Positions 22,159 to 63,130 of a stretch of DNA of 64,000 nucleotides are shown here, one piece after another. The notes beneath the pieces were generated by a model. It made no database searches. It was not told the DNA's origin and was given only the letters and a program-made list of their open reading frames with translations. A program made the position numbers and the translations under genes. Each line of letters starts with the position of its first letter. Position 1 is the first letter of the stretch. The DNA is from Magnetospirillum aberrantis SpK. GTDB lineage: Bacteria; Pseudomonadota; Alphaproteobacteria; Rhodospirillales; Magnetospirillaceae. The stretch is taken from NCBI RefSeq assembly GCF_011022235.1, contig NZ_JAAIYP010000007.1:1-64000 (forward strand). The letters run 5' to 3'.

Positions 22159-23577
22159 ATGGATCAGTCTAGTCGCTATTGCTGCCTGGGCGCCGACGAG
22201 GCCGCGCTGATGGCCGGCGGCCGTCATGTCCTGGCCGCCTATGTGATGCGGCCGAAACCCGGTTTCGAGGCCATCTCCACCGCCGCCCACTTCGCCGCCG
22301 AATCCTCGACCGGCACCAATGTCGAGGTATGCACCACCGATTCCTTCACCCGCGCCCTCGACGCCCTGGTCTACGACCTGACTCCGCTCGAAGCCGGCGA
22401 AGTGCTGATGAAGATCGCCTATCCGGTGGACCTGTTCGACCGCAACGTCGGCGACGGCCGGGCCATGGTGGTGTCGTTGCTGACGCTGATGGTGGGCAAC
22501 AACCAGGGCATGGCCGACGTGGCCTACGCCAAGCTGATGGATTTCCACCTGCCACGCGACTTCCTGCTGGCGTTCGACGGGCCGGCCTGCAACATCGCCG
22601 ACCTGTGGCACGTCCTGGGCCGCCCGGAAACCGACGGTGGCATGATCGTCGGCACCATCATCAAACCCAAGCTGGGCCTGAGGCCGCAGCCTTTCGCCGA
22701 CGCCTGCCATCAGTTCTGGCTGGGCGGCGACTTCGTGAAGAACGACGAACCCCAGGGCAACCAGGTGTTCGCACCGTTCCGCGCCACCATGGAGCGCGTC
22801 GCCGATGCCATGCGCCGTGCCCAGGACAGCACCGGCGAGGCCAAGCTGTTTTCCGCCAACATCACCGCCGACGATCCTTTCGAGATGATCCGACGGGGCG
22901 AACTGATCCTGGAGGTGTTCGGCGAGAACGCCCACCACGTCGCCTTCCTGGTGGACGGCTATGTGGGCGGCCCCGGTTCCGTCACCTTATGCCGACGGGC
23001 TTTTCCCGACCATTTCCTGCACTACCACCGTGCCGGCCACGGCGCCATCACCTCGCGGCAATCCAAGCGCGGTTATTCCGTGCTGGCGCACATGAAGATG
23101 GCCCGCCTGCAAGGGGCGTCCGGCATCCATACCGGCACCATGGGCTACGGCAAGATGGAGGGCAGCGCCTGCGAACGCATCCTGGCCGCCATGCTGGAAC
23201 GCGACACCGCCGAGGGCACCCACTTCCAGCAATCCTGGCACGGCATGAAGGCGACCACGCCCATCATCTCGGGCGGCATGAACGCCATCCGCCTGCCCGG
23301 TTTCCTCGATAACCTGGGGCACGACAACGTGATCCAAACCTCGGGCGGCGGAGTGTTCGGCCATCGCGGCGGCCCGGCGGCGGGTGGGCGTTCCATCCGC
23401 CAGGCCTGTCAGGCATGGCGTCAGGGCGTCCAATTGGTGGAATTCGCCGCCCATCATGAGGAATTGCGCGACGCCTTCCTCAGTTTTCCCGAGGATTCCG
23501 ACCGCCTGTATCCGGGGTGGCGCGAAAAATTAAAGGTGCGAGACCCAGAATTGGAGTATGGGGAAAGCGGGCGATAG
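22159..23577 (+). CDS. cbbM: Form II ribulose-1,5-bisphosphate carboxylase/oxygenase
   Basis: Fixes CO2 onto ribulose bisphosphate as a dimer of large subunits without small subunits. All active-site landmarks of form II are present: [10 protein letters not shown] (catalytic Lys), [10 protein letters not shown] with carbamylated Lys194, the HRAGHGA His, and loop 6 ([10 protein letters not shown]). 472 residues is a little longer than usual (about 460), mainly at the C-terminus. AAGGAAA precedes the ATG. A TTGACG near 22084 could be a -35 element, but no confident -10 follows. Phosphoribulokinase starts 29 bp downstream. No cbbR, cbbO or cbbQ is in the window, so the pair is isolated from other Calvin-cycle genes. 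Confidence 0.95.
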
Positions 23578-23606
23578 CGCGCCCAGCTTGCAACAGGACC
23601 GCACCT

Positions 23607-24500
23607 TTGTCGAGAAAGCACCCGATCATCGCCGTGACCGGCTCTTCCGGCGCCGGCACCACCACCGTCAAGGAAGCTTTCGAACATATGTTCCGGCGCG
23701 AGGGCATCAAGCCGGCCATCGTCGAAGGCGACAGCTTCCACCGCTTCAACCGCCCCGACATGAAAAAAGCCATGGCCGAGGCCGAGAAGACCGGAAACCG
23801 GACCTTCAGCCATTTCGGCCCCGATGCCAACCTGTTTTGCGAACTGGAAGAGGTCTTCCGCCGTTATGGCGAAACAGGCCAGGGCCGCCGCCGTCTCTAC
23901 ATCCACAACGAGGAAGAGGCCCGGCGCTTCAGTCAGTTGAACGTCAAGTCAGGCGAGTTCACGCCGTGGGAAGACATGGCCCCCGACACCGATCTGATGT
24001 TTTACGAAGGCCTGCACGGCTGCGTCGTCACCAAGGATTGCAACGTCGCCCAGCACGTTGACCTGAAGATCGGCGTGGTGCCGGTCATCAACCTGGAATG
24101 GATTCAGAAAATCCACCGCGACACCGTCGTCCGCGGCTATTCCGAGGAAGCGGTGATGGACACCATCCTGCGCCGCATGCACGACTACGTTCATTACATC
24201 GTGCCGCAGTTCAAGCTGACCGACATCAACTTCCAGCGGGTTCCCATCGTTGACACCTCGGACCCGATCATCGCCCGCGACATTCCCACCGCCGACGAAA
24301 GTCTGGTGGTGATCCGCTTCCGCAAGCCGGACCGTTTCCGCGTCGACTTTCCCTTCCTGTTGCAGATGATCAAGGATTCGTGGATGAGCCGACGCAACAC
24401 CATCGTCGTCCCCGGCGGCAAGATGGGGCTGGCCATGGAATTGATCATCACCCCCATTTTGCGCCGCATCATGGAGGATCGCCGTTCGCTGATCGGCTGA
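23607..24500 (+). CDS. cbbP: Phosphoribulokinase
   Basis: Phosphorylates ribulose 5-phosphate to the RuBisCO substrate. I place the start at TTG 23607, giving LSRKHPIIAVTGSSGAGTTT, because class I enzymes begin SxKHPIIxVTGSSGAGT. Upstream in-frame codons overlap cbbM. 297 residues is normal. The P-loop is at 12-20 (GSSGAGTTT), followed by EGDSFHRF, the FSHFGPDAN segment typical of the octameric bacterial form, and DTDLMFYEGLHG with the catalytic Asp region. It is cotranscribed with cbbM and ends in a GC-rich hairpin region. Confidence 0.93.
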   Translation: MSRKHPIIAVTGSSGAGTTTVKEAFEHMFRREGIKPAIVEGDSFHRFNRPDMKKAMAEAEKTGNRTFSHFGPDANLFCELEEVFRRYGETGQGRRRLYIHNEEEARRFSQLNVKSGEFTPWEDMAPDTDLMFYEGLHGCVVTKDCNVAQHVDLKIGVVPVINLEWIQKIHRDTVVRGYSEEAVMDTILRRMHDYVHYIVPQFKLTDINFQRVPIVDTSDPIIARDIPTADESLVVIRFRKPDRFRVDFPFLLQMIKDSWMSRRNTIVVPGGKMGLAMELIITPILRRIMEDRRSLIG

Positions 24501-24510
24501 GAAAGTGCCT

Positions 24511-24556
24511 GCCCCCCGCCCCCTTCGGTTTTATCCGAAGGGAACGGGGGGTGGGG
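24511..24556 (+). terminator. GC-rich hairpin after prk
   Basis: CCCTTCGG at 24521-24528 pairs with CCGAAGGG at 24535-24542. The flanking C-run and G-run (GCCCCCC and GGGGGG) extend the stem past a small internal loop. There is no T tract here; the first hairpin of the array downstream has one. Confidence 0.5.
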
Positions 24557-24589
24557 CCTTCCCGCCAAGGAAGCTCGAATTGGAAGGTC

Positions 24590-24857
24590 GGGGGGAAAGC
24601 GTTTGGGGTCGCTTTCCCCCCTTTTTTGTCCGGTCGGAAACTTGGGGTTCGGGGACGTTTCCCGACCGGACCAAGGGATATGAGGGGGAGCGTTTGGGGG
24701 CCGCTCCCCCTCTAAGGGATTTCCCACGGCGCTGGGGTTCGGGGACGTGCCGTGGAACACCCCTGTTTCACAAGTTTGAGAGGAGCCCCGTTTGGGGGCC
24801 AGGGCTCCTCTCGCAATTCCCGCCGGCACTGGGGTTCGGGGACGGCCGGAGGGAATC
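24590..24857. repeat. Three tandem copies of a two-hairpin unit with conserved G-rich loops and variable stems
   Basis: Six stem-loops alternate. Type A: stems at 24590-24600/24611-24621, 24682-24691/24703-24712 and 24778-24788/24802-24812, with loops GTTTGGGGTC, GTTTGGGGGCC and CGTTTGGGGGCCA. Type B: about 24628-24641/24657-24671, 24721-24730/24749-24757 and 24816-24826/24844-24856. Each B loop carries YTGGGGTTCGGGGACG, at 24642, 24732 and 24829. The period is 91-96 bp. Stems differ almost completely between copies yet pair within each copy. The first A hairpin is followed by six T and can terminate prk. The array fills the gap between the convergent prk and the kinase at 24871. No protein-coding content is credible here. 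Confidence 0.85.
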
Positions 24858-24870
24858 GTATCGATGCCGT

Positions 24871-26580
24871 TCAGGCGGCCTGAGCCTCCTGCTCTTGTTG
24901 ATCGGCCACCACCGAAACCGTCAGCGGCAGCGAGAAACTGAAGACGCTGCCACGATCCAAGGTGGATTCCACCCACACCCGGCCACCCAGGCGTTCGACC
25001 ATGCGACGCACGATCGCCAAGCCGATACCGGTGGCCGTACGCCCCTCGACCGGGCTCAGGCGGTGGAAAATCTCGAACACACGCGGCAGATGACGTTCTT
25101 CGATGCCCACACCGTTGTCGCGAACGGAGAAGATGGCGAAACCTTCCTCGCGCCGGGCGGAGACATGGATCAGCGGCTTGCGTTGCGGACTGCGATAGCG
25201 CAAGGCGTTGTCCATCAACTGGGTGAAAATCTCGGTCAGGCTGCGTTCGTCGGCGGCGACCGCCGGCAAGGTGTCGATCAACACCGTGGCGCCGGAACGG
25301 CGAACCTCGTCAAGCAGACTGGCGGCCGCGGTGTTGACCGGACCAGAGGCCTGGACCAGGGCTTCGGCGCTGGGCAAATGATCGACGGCGACGAAAGCTT
25401 CCAGATCCTGGACCAGCTTGCGCATGCGTTGGGCGCCCGACACCACATGAGCCACATAATCGCGGCTTTCGGCGTCCAGGGCGTTTTGCGCGTGGGCCGA
25501 CAACAGCTGGGCGTAAGCCACCACCCGGCGCAGCGGTTCTTGCAGGTCGTGCGCGGCCACCTCGGCGATCCGCTCGAGGTCGGCGACATAACGGCGCAGC
25601 CGCTCGCGACTGGCCAACAACTCGGCCTTCTTCAGGGACAGGTCGCGGGTAATGGCCTCTTGCCGCCGCACCACCTTGTAGAGCATCAGCAGCGCCAGCC
25701 CAAGAACCGCGGTCACCACCACGCCGACCAACAGATACGCGCGTACCGTGTCGGCATGCGGCGCCAACACCTCGGCTTGCGAGCGGCCGACCCACACCGC
25801 CAGCGACAGATCGTCGAGGGTGCGATAGCTGGCGATTCGCAATTCGCCGTCCTGCGGGCCGACCACGCGCTGGCTGCCGACACCCGATCCAGAGAACAGG
25901 TTGCTGGCCATGCCCGGAGGCAACTCGCCCCCCAGAACCCCTTCCGAGGCGGCGCGGATGACCCCGTCGCGGCCAACCAGCAGGATAGCTCCCCGTGCGC
26001 CGACATTGATCGAGCCATAGAAGTCGGAAAGATATTGCGGGTCGAACGACAGCACCAGCACGCCGGCGAAAGTTTTACCTGGCCCTTCAAGACGTCTGGT
26101 CAACTGAATCGACCACTTCCCCGAGGCACGCCCCAAGACCGGCTTGCTGACGAACAAACGATCATTGGGAGTCTTGTGCACCTGGAAGTGTTCGCGGTCG
26201 GACAAGTCCACCGGGGTGAAACCCGCCACCGTGCTGTCGGCCAGCATGCCGTTGGCGTCGATCCGCGCCATCTGAAAGCTGACGTTGCGCAGGATCGAGG
26301 ACCGGGCGACCATGTTGCCCAAGTTGAAGTTCTTGGGGGCCTCTTCATACGCCGCCTTCATATAAAGCAACGTCTGATCAAGGCCGGCGACGGTCCGCTG
26401 GATGTGTTCCTGAAAGGCGCGGGCAAGGTTGGCGGTGTCCGCCTCGGCCTGGGCCAGGACACGGGCACGTTCCCGCCCGAGGTCCAGGGCAAGCCCCAGC
26501 CACAGCACGGCCAGCACAAGAACGCCGAACGCCGCCACGGCGCTCCCGGCATTCAGTCTGGTCAGCATGGCCCGTGGCAT
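24871..26580 (-). CDS. Cache-domain membrane sensor histidine kinase
   Basis: 569 residues from ATG 26580, chosen because GAAGGG lies six bases upstream; the in-frame ATG at 26643 has none. The first TM is at about 9-30. A periplasmic double-Cache-like region follows (to about 285, with FTPVDLSDREHFQVHK and GVLVLSFDPQYLSDFYG typical of Cache sensors), then TM2 at about 288-310 and a coiled coil. The phytochrome-type HisKA carries its His in IAEVAAHDLQEPLRRV. HATPase motifs are DNALRYR, DNGVGIEERHLPRVFEIF and TGIGLAIV. It is divergent from the response regulator at 26832, a likely partner. The ligand is unknown. Confidence 0.85.
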   Translation of the reverse strand: MPRAMLTRLNAGSAVAAFGVLVLAVLWLGLALDLGRERARVLAQAEADTANLARAFQEHIQRTVAGLDQTLLYMKAAYEEAPKNFNLGNMVARSSILRNVSFQMARIDANGMLADSTVAGFTPVDLSDREHFQVHKTPNDRLFVSKPVLGRASGKWSIQLTRRLEGPGKTFAGVLVLSFDPQYLSDFYGSINVGARGAILLVGRDGVIRAASEGVLGGELPPGMASNLFSGSGVGSQRVVGPQDGELRIASYRTLDDLSLAVWVGRSQAEVLAPHADTVRAYLLVGVVVTAVLGLALLMLYKVVRRQEAITRDLSLKKAELLASRERLRRYVADLERIAEVAAHDLQEPLRRVVAYAQLLSAHAQNALDAESRDYVAHVVSGAQRMRKLVQDLEAFVAVDHLPSAEALVQASGPVNTAAASLLDEVRRSGATVLIDTLPAVAADERSLTEIFTQLMDNALRYRSPQRKPLIHVSARREEGFAIFSVRDNGVGIEERHLPRVFEIFHRLSPVEGRTATGIGLAIVRRMVERLGGRVWVESTLDRGSVFSFSLPLTVSVVADQQEQEAQAA

Positions 26581-26787
26581 GGTGCGCCCTTCATAGTGAC
26601 CGCCGTCGCCGGATTTCTTCTTGCGAAGAACTCCATTGCCCATCCCATGGCGACGACGGCCGTCCGGTTACCCGGCTTCATTGGTGAATGCATGAACATT
26701 CGACCGACGAACCCGAAATCTGATGCTTGTTTTCTATCAACTCCCTTTCAATAAAATACTGGTTGTGATTGAATTCAGCTGAAATGC

Positions 26788-26806
26788 CGTGTGAACGGCG
26801 TGTAAA
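26788..26806 (+). promoter_or_regulatory. Candidate response-regulator direct repeat
   Basis: CGTGTGAA at 26788 and CGTGTAAA at 26799 are spaced 11 bp apart, about one helical turn, as expected for OmpR/PhoB-type dimers. They lie 26 bp before the regulator start in the 250-bp divergent region between kinase and regulator. Autoregulation is inferred. Confidence 0.35.
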
Positions 26807-26831
26807 TGTTGCGGCACGGAGGAGGTGGGCG

Positions 26832-27539
26832 TTGTCCGGGGGAAAGGCTCATGTGCTGATCGTCGAGGATGAACCCGTAACCCGGGGCAAGCTGGCCGCC
26901 CATCTGGTGGCCGAGGGCTTCCAGGTCAGCGAGGCGGCGGACGCCCGCGACATGCGCACCATCGTCTCGCGTACGGTGCCGGACGTAGTGCTGTTGGACA
27001 TCAACCTGCCCGACGAAAGCGGCCTGATCCTCGCCCGCGACCTGCGCGCCAAATCATCGGTCGGCATCATCCTGGTCACCGCCCGTCAGGACGAAACCGA
27101 CCGGATCGTCGGCCTGGAACTGGGGGCCGACGACTACATCACCAAACCGTTCAATCCGCGCGAACTGGCTGTCCGGGTACGCAACCTGATCCGCCGCGTG
27201 GCGCCCAGCATGGCCGCCGAACGCCAGGCCAGCGGCGTCTATGCCTTCGCCGGCTGGAAACTCGATTGCGACGCCCGGCAGTTGATCTCGCCACAGGGCG
27301 AGGCGGTGCGCCTGACGCGCGGCGAATTCGACGTCTTGGCGGCGTTGGCCCGCAACGCCGGCCGGGCGTTGACCCGCGACCAGTTGCTGGACTTGACCCA
27401 GCATGACGGCGAAGCGGTCATCGACCGCACCATCGACGTCCTGGTCGGCCGCCTGCGCCGCAAGATCGAGGTCGATCCCAAGCATCCGGCGATCATCGTC
27501 ACCGTACACGGCATCGGCTATCGGCTGGTCGCCGGCTGA
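26832..27539 (+). CDS. OmpR/PhoB-family response regulator
   Basis: 235 residues from TTG 26832, which follows a strong GGAGGAGG Shine-Dalgarno; the in-frame ATG at 26769 has none. The receiver is at 5-120, with acceptor Asp56 in VVLLDINLPDE, Thr in LVTARQDE and Lys in DYITKPFNPREL. The winged-helix output is at 140-233, with LTRGEFDVLAALARNAGRALTRDQLLDLT and the VDVLVGRLRRKIE plus VHGIGYRL ends. It probably pairs with the Cache kinase divergently encoded next to it. Confidence 0.88.
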   Translation: MSGGKAHVLIVEDEPVTRGKLAAHLVAEGFQVSEAADARDMRTIVSRTVPDVVLLDINLPDESGLILARDLRAKSSVGIILVTARQDETDRIVGLELGADDYITKPFNPRELAVRVRNLIRRVAPSMAAERQASGVYAFAGWKLDCDARQLISPQGEAVRLTRGEFDVLAALARNAGRALTRDQLLDLTQHDGEAVIDRTIDVLVGRLRRKIEVDPKHPAIIVTVHGIGYRLVAG

Positions 27540-39630: not shown

Positions 39631-41057
39631 TGAAAAAGGTCTTTGCCGGCATACGCCTTCGCCGTCTGCGCGAGGAACAGCGCCTGACCCAGGCGGCGCT
39701 GGCTCGTGCGCTGGGGTTGTCGACCACCTACGTCAACCAGCTCGAACACGACCAGCGGCCCTTGACCCAGACGGTGGTGGACAAGATCCGCGAGATGTTC
39801 GGCACCAGCATTCCGCTGGACGAAGACGCCGAGGCACGACTGGCCGGCGAGTTGCGCGACGCCCTGGCGGAGATCGGCGACGGCGTGGCCCAGGCGGAAA
39901 TCCGCCAGCTTGCCACCACCATGCCCATGCTCGGCCGCGCCGTACTGAATCTGCACCGGCGGTATCGCCAGACCCTGGAGAAATCCGAGGCCTTGGCCGC
40001 CGGACTGGAGCAACGTGGCCAATCCATGACGGCGCTGATGCCGCACGAGGAAGTGCGCAATTTCTTTTATGACCGCCGCAACCACATCGCCGAACTGGAC
40101 GAAGCGGCGGAACACCTGTTCCAGCGCCACGGCCTGAGCGCCGGCAACATGGAACGCGACCTGGAACGGGTGCTGGCCGAAGTGCACGGCATCGCCATCC
40201 GCCATCACGACGGCGCCGACCACCGCCGCTTCGACCGCGCCTCCCGCGTACTGATCCTGCCGGCCAACCGCTCGCCCGGACAACAGGCGTTCCAGATGGC
40301 GACGCAACTGGCCTTCCTGAGCGTGGGCGCCCGCCTGGACGAACTGACGCGGGCCGGCAACTTCACCGGCCCCGAGGCCCGCGCCCTGGCCCGCATCGGA
40401 CTGGCCAATTATTTCGCCGGCGCGCTGGTGCTGCCGTACAGCCTGTTCCTGGCCTCGGCCGAGGAACTGAATTACGACATCGACCTGTTGGGCCGGCGCT
40501 TCGGCGTCGGCTTCGAGACGGTTTGCCATCGCCTGTCCACCCTGCAACGGCCGCGCTCCCAGGGGGTGCCGTTCTTTTTTGTCCGCGTCGACCGGGCCGG
40601 CAACATCTCGAAACGGCAATCGGCCACAGATTTCCACTTTTCGCGCGGCGGCGGCACCTGTCCCTTGTGGAACGTCTATGAAGCCTTCGCCAATCCCGGC
40701 CGCATCCTGACCCAGGTGGCGCGCATGCCCGACGACCGCACCTATCTGTGGGTGGCGCGCACGGTGTCGCACCGTTCCGGCGGCTGGGGGGCACCGGGCA
40801 AGGATTTCGCCATCGGCCTGGGCTGCGACATCCGCCACGCCCACCGCCTGGTCTATTCCAAGGGGCTGGACCTGACCGACCCCAGCGCCGCCACCCCCAT
40901 CGGCGGCGGCTGTCGGGTGTGCGAACGCGCGTCGTGTCCGCAACGCGCCTTTCCCGCCATCGGCCGCCCGCTGGCGGTGGACGAGAACCGCAGCCGTTTC
41001 GAACCCTATGCCGCCGCCGGGCTTGACACCCCGCCCGCCCCCTCCTACCGTCCCTAG
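39630..41057 (+). CDS. pccR: Short-chain acyl-CoA regulator, PccR/ScfR (RamB-like) family
   Basis: 475 residues from ATG 39630. An XRE helix-turn-helix (RLRRLREEQRLTQAALARALGLSTTYVNQLEHDQRPL) is joined to an IrrE/ImmA-like domain. The usual HExxH is degenerate, reading FFYDRRNHIAELD and ILPANRSPGQQAFQMATQLAF. A C-terminal DUF2083-type region follows, with cysteines (GGGCRVCERASCPQRAFP). The family controls propionyl-CoA or acetyl-CoA assimilation genes, in line with the divergent mutAB. The acyl-CoA sensed is likely propionyl-CoA, by context. A cobalamin riboswitch starts right after the stop. Confidence 0.82.
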   Translation: MKKVFAGIRLRRLREEQRLTQAALARALGLSTTYVNQLEHDQRPLTQTVVDKIREMFGTSIPLDEDAEARLAGELRDALAEIGDGVAQAEIRQLATTMPMLGRAVLNLHRRYRQTLEKSEALAAGLEQRGQSMTALMPHEEVRNFFYDRRNHIAELDEAAEHLFQRHGLSAGNMERDLERVLAEVHGIAIRHHDGADHRRFDRASRVLILPANRSPGQQAFQMATQLAFLSVGARLDELTRAGNFTGPEARALARIGLANYFAGALVLPYSLFLASAEELNYDIDLLGRRFGVGFETVCHRLSTLQRPRSQGVPFFFVRVDRAGNISKRQSATDFHFSRGGGTCPLWNVYEAFANPGRILTQVARMPDDRTYLWVARTVSHRSGGWGAPGKDFAIGLGCDIRHAHRLVYSKGLDLTDPSAATPIGGGCRVCERASCPQRAFPAIGRPLAVDENRSRFEPYAAAGLDTPPAPSYRP

Positions 41058-41059
41058 CG

Positions 41060-41270
41060 GTTACGGTCTTCGGGAACCCAATACCCGGAGCTAAGAGGGA
41101 AGCCGGTGCGAAACCGGCGCTGCCCCCGCAACTGTCAGCGGCGAGCCGCCGTCCACCATGGCCACTGGGGCAAGCTCCGGGAAGGCCGGACCAAGGCCAC
41201 GACCCGCGAGCCAGGAGACCTGCCGCAACCCTTGTCAACGTCGTCGGGCGGGGTGTCCCGGTGGGGTGAG
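41060..41270 (+). promoter_or_regulatory. Cobalamin riboswitch 1, before the 124-aa unknown gene
   Basis: Consensus elements in order: GAGGGAAGCCGGTG (about 41095), GCTGCCCCCGCAACTGTCAG (41119), GCCACTGGG (41161), CCGGGAAGG, and the B12 box AGCCAGGAGACCTGCC at 41209-41224. A GGGCGGGGTGTCCCGGTGGG hairpin follows and may be the kissing-loop/expression part. It is very similar to riboswitch 2 at 45315. Binding of cobalamin should lower expression of the gene at 41330. Confidence 0.92.
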
Positions 41271-45261: not shown

Positions 45262-45314
45262 CTTTTTTGCAAACCCGCCTTGACTCGTCCCCATTCCAGG
45301 ACATAGCCTATCTT

Positions 45315-45530
45315 GCGTTACGGTTCCCCGGACACCACAACATCCGGGGCTAAGAGGGAAGCCGGTGCGAGACCGGCGCTGCCCCCGCAACTGTCAGCGG
45401 CGAGCCTTTGTCCATCATGCCACTGGGGAAACCCCCTGGGAAGGCGGACAGGGGCCGCGACCCGCGAGCCAGGAGACCTGCCGTGACCTGTTTGTCGTCC
45501 ACGGGCGGGGTGTCCCGGTGGGTCGCCTGC
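45315..45530 (+). promoter_or_regulatory. Cobalamin riboswitch 2, before nrdAB
   Basis: Shares long identical blocks with riboswitch 1: GCTAAGAGGGAAGCCGGTGC, GCTGCCCCCGCAACTGTCAG, GCCACTGGG, the B12 box AGCCAGGAGACCTGCC (45467-45482) and GGGCGGGGTGTCCCGGTGGG. Cobalamin binding should repress the B12-independent reductase downstream, as described for class I reductases in bacteria that also own a B12-dependent class II enzyme. Confidence 0.93.
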
Positions 45531-55068: not shown

Positions 55069-55319
55069 GGAACAGCTCCTCTCGATCCGCGAATGGTCAT
55101 GACGAATGCCGGACAAAGGCACCCGCCGCGTGGTCGCGCGAAGCTGTGAAAAGTTGGAATGGGGCTTGACCAAACCCGCCGGAACCGCCCTTGCGGTCTG
55201 CGGTCGTTTTCGATGTCGTTGGTCTTAGCTTGTTTCCGGTCCTCTTTCCCACAGCAGCGCAAAGCGCACCACCACAGGCGAAAGAGCCATACCAAACGGG
55301 TGTCCCGCCCGTCGGAAAG

Positions 55320-55505
55320 GTGATACTCGCGCCGGCAGGTCTCCTGACTCGCGGATTGTCGGAACGCCCCTCGCCTTCCCGGTTTCCCAGTGGCTGATTG
55401 AGAGGCCCCTAGCCGCTTACAGTTGCGGGAACAGTCGCGGAATCGCACCGCGTTCCCTCTTGCCCCCCATCACGGGGACCGTCGCTGGGCACAGGAATAC
55501 CCTTG
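55320..55505 (-). promoter_or_regulatory. Cobalamin riboswitch 3, before btuB-tonB-cobH
   Basis: On the minus strand: GAGGGAACGCGGTGCGATTC, CCGCAACTGTAAGCGG, GCCACTGGGAA, CCGGGAAGGCG and the B12 box AGTCAGGAGACCTGCC (55349 down to 55334). A leader of about 250 nt separates it from the btuB ATG and contains no gene I can support. Confidence 0.93.
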
Positions 55506-55574
55506 CGGATTTTAGGGTGTCAAGGGTGCATGCAGGTTGCATCTTGACCTTGCCATATCACCTGACCCAAGGTG

Positions 55575-55795
55575 TGGCCGTCTTCGGTGTCCGAAGGCGG
55601 CCCTGGCCGCCCTTGGATCGCAAGTGGGAACCCGGTGGAAATCCGGGACTGTCGCGCAGCGGTATTGGGGAACGAAGGCCACAAGGCGGCACGTGCCGCC
55701 GGGCACTGGTCCGAATGGACCGGGAAGCCGTGGCCCAAGGATCGTCGGACGGATTGGTCCGACCTGCCCCTAAGTCCGAACACCGGCCGAAGACA
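55575..55795 (+). promoter_or_regulatory. Variant cobalamin riboswitch 4, before btuFCD-like genes
   Basis: GGGAACCCGGTGGAAATCC, GGGACTGTCGCGCAGCGG, GGGCACTGG and CGGGAAGCC match the cobalamin riboswitch core in order. The B12 box is altered: GGATTGGTCCGACCTGCC stands where AGCCAGGAGACCTGCC is expected, keeping only CCTGCC and losing the GGAGA. It may be a structural subclass or respond to a different corrinoid. About 125 nt of non-coding leader follow before ATG 55921. Confidence 0.75.
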
Positions 55796-55920
55796 TGACG
55801 GGGGAATGGTCCCGCCGTCATCGACATGGGCTTTCGCGTCAAAAGGCACCATGACCGGAGAGGCGATGCCCCTTCCGCGTCCTGGCCCCGCGCGCAAGCC
55901 GGAACAGGCGGAAGGACGTC

Positions 55921-62770: not shown

Positions 62771-62884
62771 CCACCCGTCAAATTATGCGACTGCGTTGGA
62801 TTGGTAGGCGATCGCGACCACCTCAGGCAACCCTAAAGTGATGGTTGACAGGCTGGCGCCGCGGGTGCCAGTTTGCGCCCTGCG

Positions 62885-63130
62885 TACAGGTTCCCCATTG
62901 GGCAAACCCCAGGGGATTAATAGGGAACACGGTAAGGACGACCCGTTTCGGGGCCGAATCCGTGGCTGCCCCCGCAACTGTGAGCGGCGAGCTTGCGTCC
63001 ACGCTTGACCACTGGGACATCCCCGGGAAGGTCGGACGCCAAGCCCTGACCCGCAAGCCAGGAGACCTGCCTGACGCCGTCGCCCAACCGTCCGAGCGGG
63101 GTGTCTCGGGGGTGCGGAAGCCTTTCTTCC
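62885..63130 (+). promoter_or_regulatory. Cobalamin riboswitch 5, before the radical SAM gene
   Basis: Elements in order: TAGGGAACACGGTAAGG, GCTGCCCCCGCAACTGTGAG, CCACTGGGA, CCGGGAAGGTC, B12 box AAGCCAGGAGACCTGCC (63055-63071), then GGGGTGTCTCGGGGGTG. It occupies most of the 450-bp divergent gap. Confidence 0.92.

Follow-up and report, generated by a model that had tools for sequence, protein, structure and literature searches.

Six hairpins lying in tandem between prk and a histidine kinase gene of Magnetospirillum aberrantis SpK make up what is apparently an undescribed kind of structured RNA, kept beside a two-component system in Magnetospirillum and its close relatives. This array RNA probably has a regulatory function. 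The array was found in a stretch of 64,000 nucleotides, hereafter called the window, where three tandem pairs of a type A and a type B hairpin occupy the intergenic positions 24590-24858 and follow one another on the plus strand in the order A1, B1, A2, B2, A3 and B3. The array, the genes on either side of it and the adjoining elements are the following:

23517-24500, plus strand: prk
24502-24575: a second palindromic element, GC-rich and ending in CTTCCCGCCAAGGAAGCT, in the space from prk to the array
24590-24621, minus strand: hairpin A1, last on the RNA, minus-strand loop ACCCCAAA
24628-24671, minus strand: hairpin B1, loop GTCCCCGAACCCCAA
24682-24712, minus strand: hairpin A2, loop GCCCCCAAA
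24715-24764, minus strand: hairpin B2, loop ACGTCCCCGAACCCCAGC
24778-24812, minus strand: hairpin A3, loop GCCCCCAAA, as in hairpin A2
24814-24858, minus strand: hairpin B3, first on the RNA, 12 nt past the kinase gene, loop CGTCCCCGAACCCCAGT
24871-26643, minus strand: histidine kinase of 590 aa with HisKA and HATPase_c (a dCache match lay below the cut-off)
26734-26807, no strand assigned: conserved kinase/regulator intergenic region, its features recognised by eye in an alignment, putative control site
26832-27539, plus strand: OmpR/TorR-type response regulator, start near 26832 suggested by homology

An initial annotation of this DNA had recognised the six alternating hairpins, and the array proved to be real. 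All six were formed in the minimum-energy fold of the minus strand (-150.8 kcal/mol), and none of 200 dinucleotide shuffles was as stable (mean -106.5, z = -9.3). The plus strand of the window array gave z = -2.7, with hairpins B2 and B3 disrupted. The exact B-loop 15-mer had three matches in this genome, all within the array, and a shorter B-loop 11-mer had two further copies outside it. When the B motif was searched with up to three mismatches in the 64-kb window alone, nine matches were obtained versus 5.7 expected, no excess over chance; the array is regarded as certain because of its tandem structure and the relatives described below, not because of this motif count. A stretch similar to the palindromic element at 24502-24575 also adjoins the array, as judged by eye, in genomes G025, G026 and G028. 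An Rfam scan found no family at gathering score at the array. As a separate observation, five cobalamin riboswitches (RF00174), each above gathering score, lie in the window within a span of about 22 kb:

41047-41241, plus strand: cobalamin riboswitch
45304-45499, plus strand: cobalamin riboswitch
55317-55498, minus strand: cobalamin riboswitch
55568-55805, plus strand: cobalamin riboswitch
62870-63088, plus strand: cobalamin riboswitch

The strand that carries the structure can be deduced from the stems, which are alike on both strands except that a G.U pair on one strand is an A.C mismatch on the other. Because the alignments A3 and A4 had been fitted to the structure and so favour it, the strand tests used a stem finder that treats both strands symmetrically. 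In the interior of the stems of 84 hairpins from 15 genomes, the plus-strand reading contained 84 A.C (equivalent to G.U on the minus strand) versus 14 G.T, and the lean had the same direction in all 15 genomes. The held-out genus, with 56 hairpins from 14 genomes outside the model, gave 87 G.U versus 6 A.C on the RNA strand. G022, G023 and G027 have lost the loop motif in the B hairpin of the first unit; these hairpins were retained in the counts. The wobble and covariation counts alike represent related sequences and not independent events. The folding z-score of the array alone (30 shuffles each) was lower on the RNA strand in 29/29 arrays, with a median of -8.3 versus -3.0; with longer flanks, raw energy favoured the RNA strand in 11/15 genomes and the plus strand in 4/15. 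Taken together, the wobble asymmetry and the predicted folding show the selected molecule to be a minus-strand RNA with the same sense as the kinase gene and with C-rich loops (UCCCCGAACCCC in type B and CCCC(C)AA in type A). The G-rich loops of the initial annotation, and with them its suggestion of a G-quadruplex former, therefore belong to the strand that is not the selected one.

The loops are nearly invariant, and the stems vary but remain paired. Arrays contain from one to three B-A hairpin pairs, and among 70 such units in 29 genomes TCCCCGAACCCC was exact in 61 B loops, CCCC[GA]AACCC was present in 65 B loops and CCCC(C)AA in 68 A loops, with CCCC(C/G)AA-type cores in both hairpins of 65 units; the near-invariance ascribed to the loops from the window was thus confirmed. 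At L158, L159 and L164 the first-unit B hairpin is kept and its loop motif is lost.

For the stems, the automatic consensus fold of a MAFFT alignment gave the A stem only and the resulting model (R1) was set aside; the B stem was placed by hand, and the covariance model R2 was built from 42 units of 15 genomes. In the held-out genus g16, 94.5% of 437 cells were paired, compared with 78.1% after shuffling and 45.4-71.8% after sliding, changes on both sides were found in 76 cells versus 20.8 shuffled, and 14 of 17 pairs had changes on both sides versus 8.6 shuffled. In the model set, pairing was 78.3% of 710 cells versus 58.9% shuffled and double-change cells numbered 158 versus 62.8 shuffled; pairs showing any double change numbered 15 versus 14.7 shuffled, which is no excess. 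Both alignments were fitted to the structure, so that these figures lean towards it. In an arm-swap control on the held-out hairpins, real stems scored at least 22 (median 30), whereas swapped arms had a median of 11, a 95% point of 27 and a maximum of 32, an overlap with the real scores that arises partly because orthologous arms still pair. The claim that both arms of the stems had changed with pairing kept, which was first made from the three units of the window, thus holds among relatives in which the stems covary, and it points to a structure under selection whose loops are of specific sequence, which sets the array apart from ordinary terminators and REP elements.

An exact search for the loops found them in 18 of 55 genomes of the family, including 13/13 of the window's genus. 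The covariance-model search that the initial annotation had proposed was carried out with R2. Of the 317 genomes searched in the order, 29 gave the array, in 4 of 115 genera and all within one family: 13/13 genomes of the window's genus, G003, G010 and 14/17 genomes of g16. No R2 match was obtained in the other 285 genomes of the order under strict filters, with which weak matches are lost. The initial annotation had named a lack of other genomic copies together with a lack of RNA, or stems failing to covary among relatives, as findings that would speak against it; the exact B loop indeed has no other copy in the genome, and 28 other genomes carry the array, with covarying stems. The R2 matches sit at one place per genome, which does not agree with the mobile structured repeat family that had also been suggested. 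Exact-pattern matches outside arrays (L006, L008, L022 and L023) were dropped as chance, as was a second place in G026 (contig C272; L163), where the R2 match covered only 17 positions with 18.3 bits. A contig-wide scan with the exact 15-mer returned at least 120 stretches, mostly scattered among unrelated phyla, and among the matches listed the useful Magnetospirillum records were L127 and L132 only.

In the window the array comes after the stop codon of the kinase gene on the same strand, and the kinase and regulator genes are divergent. The region between them contains repeats with TT at a spacing of about 11 bp (26769-26807) that are conserved, by eye, across 31 aligned genomes. Most of these genomes also have, towards the kinase, a TATAA-like box, which is not clear in the window. 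The longest open reading frame of the regulator starts at 26769 and overlaps the repeats. We propose that 26734-26807 could be a regulator-driven control site or promoter of the kinase-array transcript.

The response regulator was matched beside the array in 28/29 genomes (partly at the locus edges in g16), with 79-97% identity in the first-set comparison. The exception is G030, in which the array contig ends inside the kinase gene and the remainder of the kinase and the regulator are on another contig. At E <=1e-95 the regulator was found in 31/55 genomes of the family, namely 28/29 array genomes and G034, G035 and G041; the array genome missed at this threshold is G038, whose locus shows the regulator match only at its edge. 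The kinase adjoins the array, with the array directly 3', in 27/29 genomes. In G029 and G010 the array lies beside the regulator with no adjacent kinase match, and their best kinase matches, with 39% and 41% identity, lie elsewhere. In g16 the kinase matches that of the window in the kinase part only, and its open frame is about 370 aa (e.g. L186) versus 590 aa in the window. The regulator and a related kinase are present and the array is absent in G034, G035 and G041, where no tandem hairpins were seen near the regulator; a loose motif search near the regulator of array-less genomes gave one match each in L227 and L233. The linkage between array and regulator may be plain vertical inheritance.

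The association with the 3' end of prk that was seen in the window is not general. The array has prk directly before it in 3 of 15 first-set stretches (G000, G028 and G030) and further off in 6; no prk match was found in the remaining 6, nor in any of the g16 loci (14, each about 3 kb long). The constant neighbours are the regulator and, mostly, the kinase. In the window, A1 may serve as an added terminator for prk, since it is followed by TTTTTT on the plus strand. By a crude count, at least six T in 9 nt follow A1 on the RNA strand in 6/15 genomes, the window not among them, and an equal run (at least six of 9) is present on the other strand in 3/15; a terminator-like T-run at A1 gives no account of the other five hairpins.

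The explanation that we tentatively favour, with a probability approaching an even chance, is that the array is the 3'UTR-type portion of a response-regulator-linked, trans-acting regulatory RNA, located at the 3' end of the kinase transcript and carrying repeated C-rich docking loops. Transcription of kinase and array would probably start from the kinase/regulator intergenic region, driven by the neighbouring response regulator, and the hairpin part (about 80-290 nt) would accumulate as, or be processed to, a stable RNA. Rigid stems would keep the C-rich loops open, so that one docking site is offered in several copies, and the partner would most likely be G-rich mRNA stretches, which the loops would reach by short pairing; a mechanism of this kind has been proposed for alphaproteobacterial sRNAs with CCUCCUCCC loops. 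Signalling through the two-component system could in this way alter the translation or decay of the targets. A position on the same strand directly after a coding gene, as expected of the 3'UTR type, was found in 27/29 arrays, the others being those of G029 and G010. Against this explanation stands the presence of the regulator and a related kinase without the array in the three genomes named above.

Candidate targets were sought with the complement of the B loop. As an 11-mer it occurred in 42 copies outside arrays in 13 genomes versus 37 for the reversed control, and in G020 there was no copy outside the array. No full-length complementary target stands out, and pairing, if any, must therefore be short. 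Among 48 listed sites that were compared (from two sets of matches, 30 taken from each, and including three array sites), the pairs in orthologous DNA besides the array pairs were L241/L252, L243/L255, L248/L253 and L267/L284, and L238/L274 was a weak match with inverted order. Two sites may be leads, that of L243/L255, 4 nt ahead of a possible GTG start, and that of L261, 1 nt ahead of a possible ATG. The loop complement before ATG had many more matches than the reversed control in 13/13 genomes; this control is unsuited and the excess uninformative, because the codon use of GTA is unlike that of the reversed word.

The main rival of a trans-acting RNA, by analogy with CsrB, is a protein decoy, in which the CCCC(C/G)AA loops would titrate many copies of one RNA-binding protein, in the way that CsrB and RsmZ act on CsrA, and the two-component system would command synthesis of the RNA. 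We consider this unlikely, but the logic of the design is the same: as in the decoys CsrB, RsmY and RsmZ, hairpins are repeated with one fixed loop motif, free stems and a link to a response regulator, and in E. coli the two-component system BarA-UvrY is described as driving CsrB/C (PMC7652899). The missing enrichment of a long complementary target would also agree with a decoy. The known decoys have GGA loops and CsrA as partner, whereas the array RNA consensus and its loops are without GGA and CsrA was found in 0/21 genomes, compared with 3/14 controls.

A somewhat less probable alternative is that the array acts in cis as a 3'UTR, protecting the kinase mRNA, terminating converging transcripts or loading or holding Rho through its C-rich loops, with no role in trans. 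It would be in keeping with the location of the array directly 3' of the kinase gene in 27/29 genomes, with the T-rich sequence after A1 on one strand or the other in a number of genomes and with the separation of converging genes by the array in the window. However, stability or termination does not need two loop sequences that are kept over four genera while the stems change, and G029 and G010 have kept the array although no kinase adjoins it.

A DNA-level element (a cruciform or protein-binding site) or a mobile REP-like repeat might be read from the tandem palindromes but is very improbable, given the strong strand asymmetry of the wobble pairs, not expected from DNA hairpins, the single place per genome beside the same regulator in 28/29 and the B-loop 15-mer that is found nowhere else in the window's genome, where a REP family would have many dispersed copies. 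Just as improbable is a plus-strand RNA with G-rich loops or G-quadruplexes at the 3' end of prk: the plus strand does have GGGG runs, A1 with TTTTTT can terminate prk and the fold with flanks is more stable on that strand in 4/15 genomes, but the predicted plus-strand fold disrupts B2 and B3, wobble pairs (84 versus 14) and array-only z-scores (lower in 29/29) favour the other strand, and prk is directly adjacent in the 3/15 stretches only. Because of its strand, its single place and its linkage to the regulator, the array is thus not a mobile repeat, a G-quadruplex or a prk element and is probably not a plain terminator, and the RNA- or protein-binding array, also among the possibilities raised at the outset, remains the leading class. 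A bolder statement, which is possible but doubtful, is that response regulator and multi-loop RNA form a conserved unit in which the RNA is the lasting output and the kinase is exchangeable (in the sister genus it matches in the kinase part only) or absent, in which case the RNA is left beside the promoter region of the regulator, and that the CCCC(C/G)AA loops dock a partner (RNA or protein) new to bacteria.

The regulatory RNA proposed here is compact and family-specific with a clear anatomy, and it is present in a genus that has culturable magnetotactic members amenable to genetic work. Through it a structured RNA is linked to a two-component system. Arrays that lack a neighbouring kinase are natural variants in which its function can be tested, and the loop motif and the covariance model can be used for finding the partner.

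A trace of the locus may already have been published. In a transcriptome study of M. gryphiswaldense, an entry named 'BjrC80 sRNA' is placed at 1,456,741-1,456,921 (181 nt, minus strand) with 43.4 bits; the study describes it as of function unknown and upstream of hypothetical proteins, with no transcription start mapped in either condition (PMC9549626). The array of G020 gives a BjrC80 match over 181 nt with 43.5 bits, from which we infer that G020 belongs to that species and that this entry is the array locus, the difference in coordinates being of the kind found between assemblies. The absence of a mapped start from the entry fits a 3'UTR origin without showing that the RNA exists. Among the open-access papers listed in our searches we found no other description of the array RNA or of its loop CCCCGAACCCC.

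The BjrC80 sRNA (RF02354) resembles the array in having several hairpins, C-rich loops and a similar length. On the RNA strand of the array its model scored 41.5 bits in the window, 43.5 in G020 and 23.9 in G003, far below the gathering score of 80. Among 385 genomes of the class, three had a BjrC80 match at E <=0.001, one of which was above the cut-off with 130.1 bits. In the reciprocal test, the array model gave no match with E up to 1 at one genuine BjrC80 locus (L174), and the BjrC80 loops differ from those of the array, which suggests that the published M. gryphiswaldense entry is a different RNA. By eye, a reading frame resembling a response regulator lies shortly after the genuine BjrC80 locus L174 (in G413), on the same strand. 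The 6C RNA (RF01066) likewise has hairpins with C-rich loops and gave same-strand scores of 21.0 and 16.5 bits (gathering score 47), but these are not significant (E = 1.5 and 9.6) and its loops differ in the alignment.

The SmelA075/CcsR ('cuckoo') sRNAs of Rhizobiales and Rhodobacter share with the array repeated hairpins, a common C-rich loop and variable stems, and CcsR has the same loop motif as SmelA075 and SmelA099. SmelA075 and SmelA099 are described with three or four hairpins, the loop CCUCCUCCC and more variable stems, and alphaproteobacterial sRNAs with this loop were proposed to block ribosome-binding sites (PMC3927594); CcsR1-4 are reported to derive from a 3'UTR (PMC8625941). 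In contrast, the array has the loops CCCC(C/G)AA and UCCCCGAACCCC, not the anti-Shine-Dalgarno CCUCCUCCC, and it consists of two alternating hairpin types at one locus that is tied to a two-component system. By this comparison, the best reading is that the array RNA would follow a known general design, that of the alphaproteobacterial multi-hairpin sRNA, with another loop and in a family-specific form.
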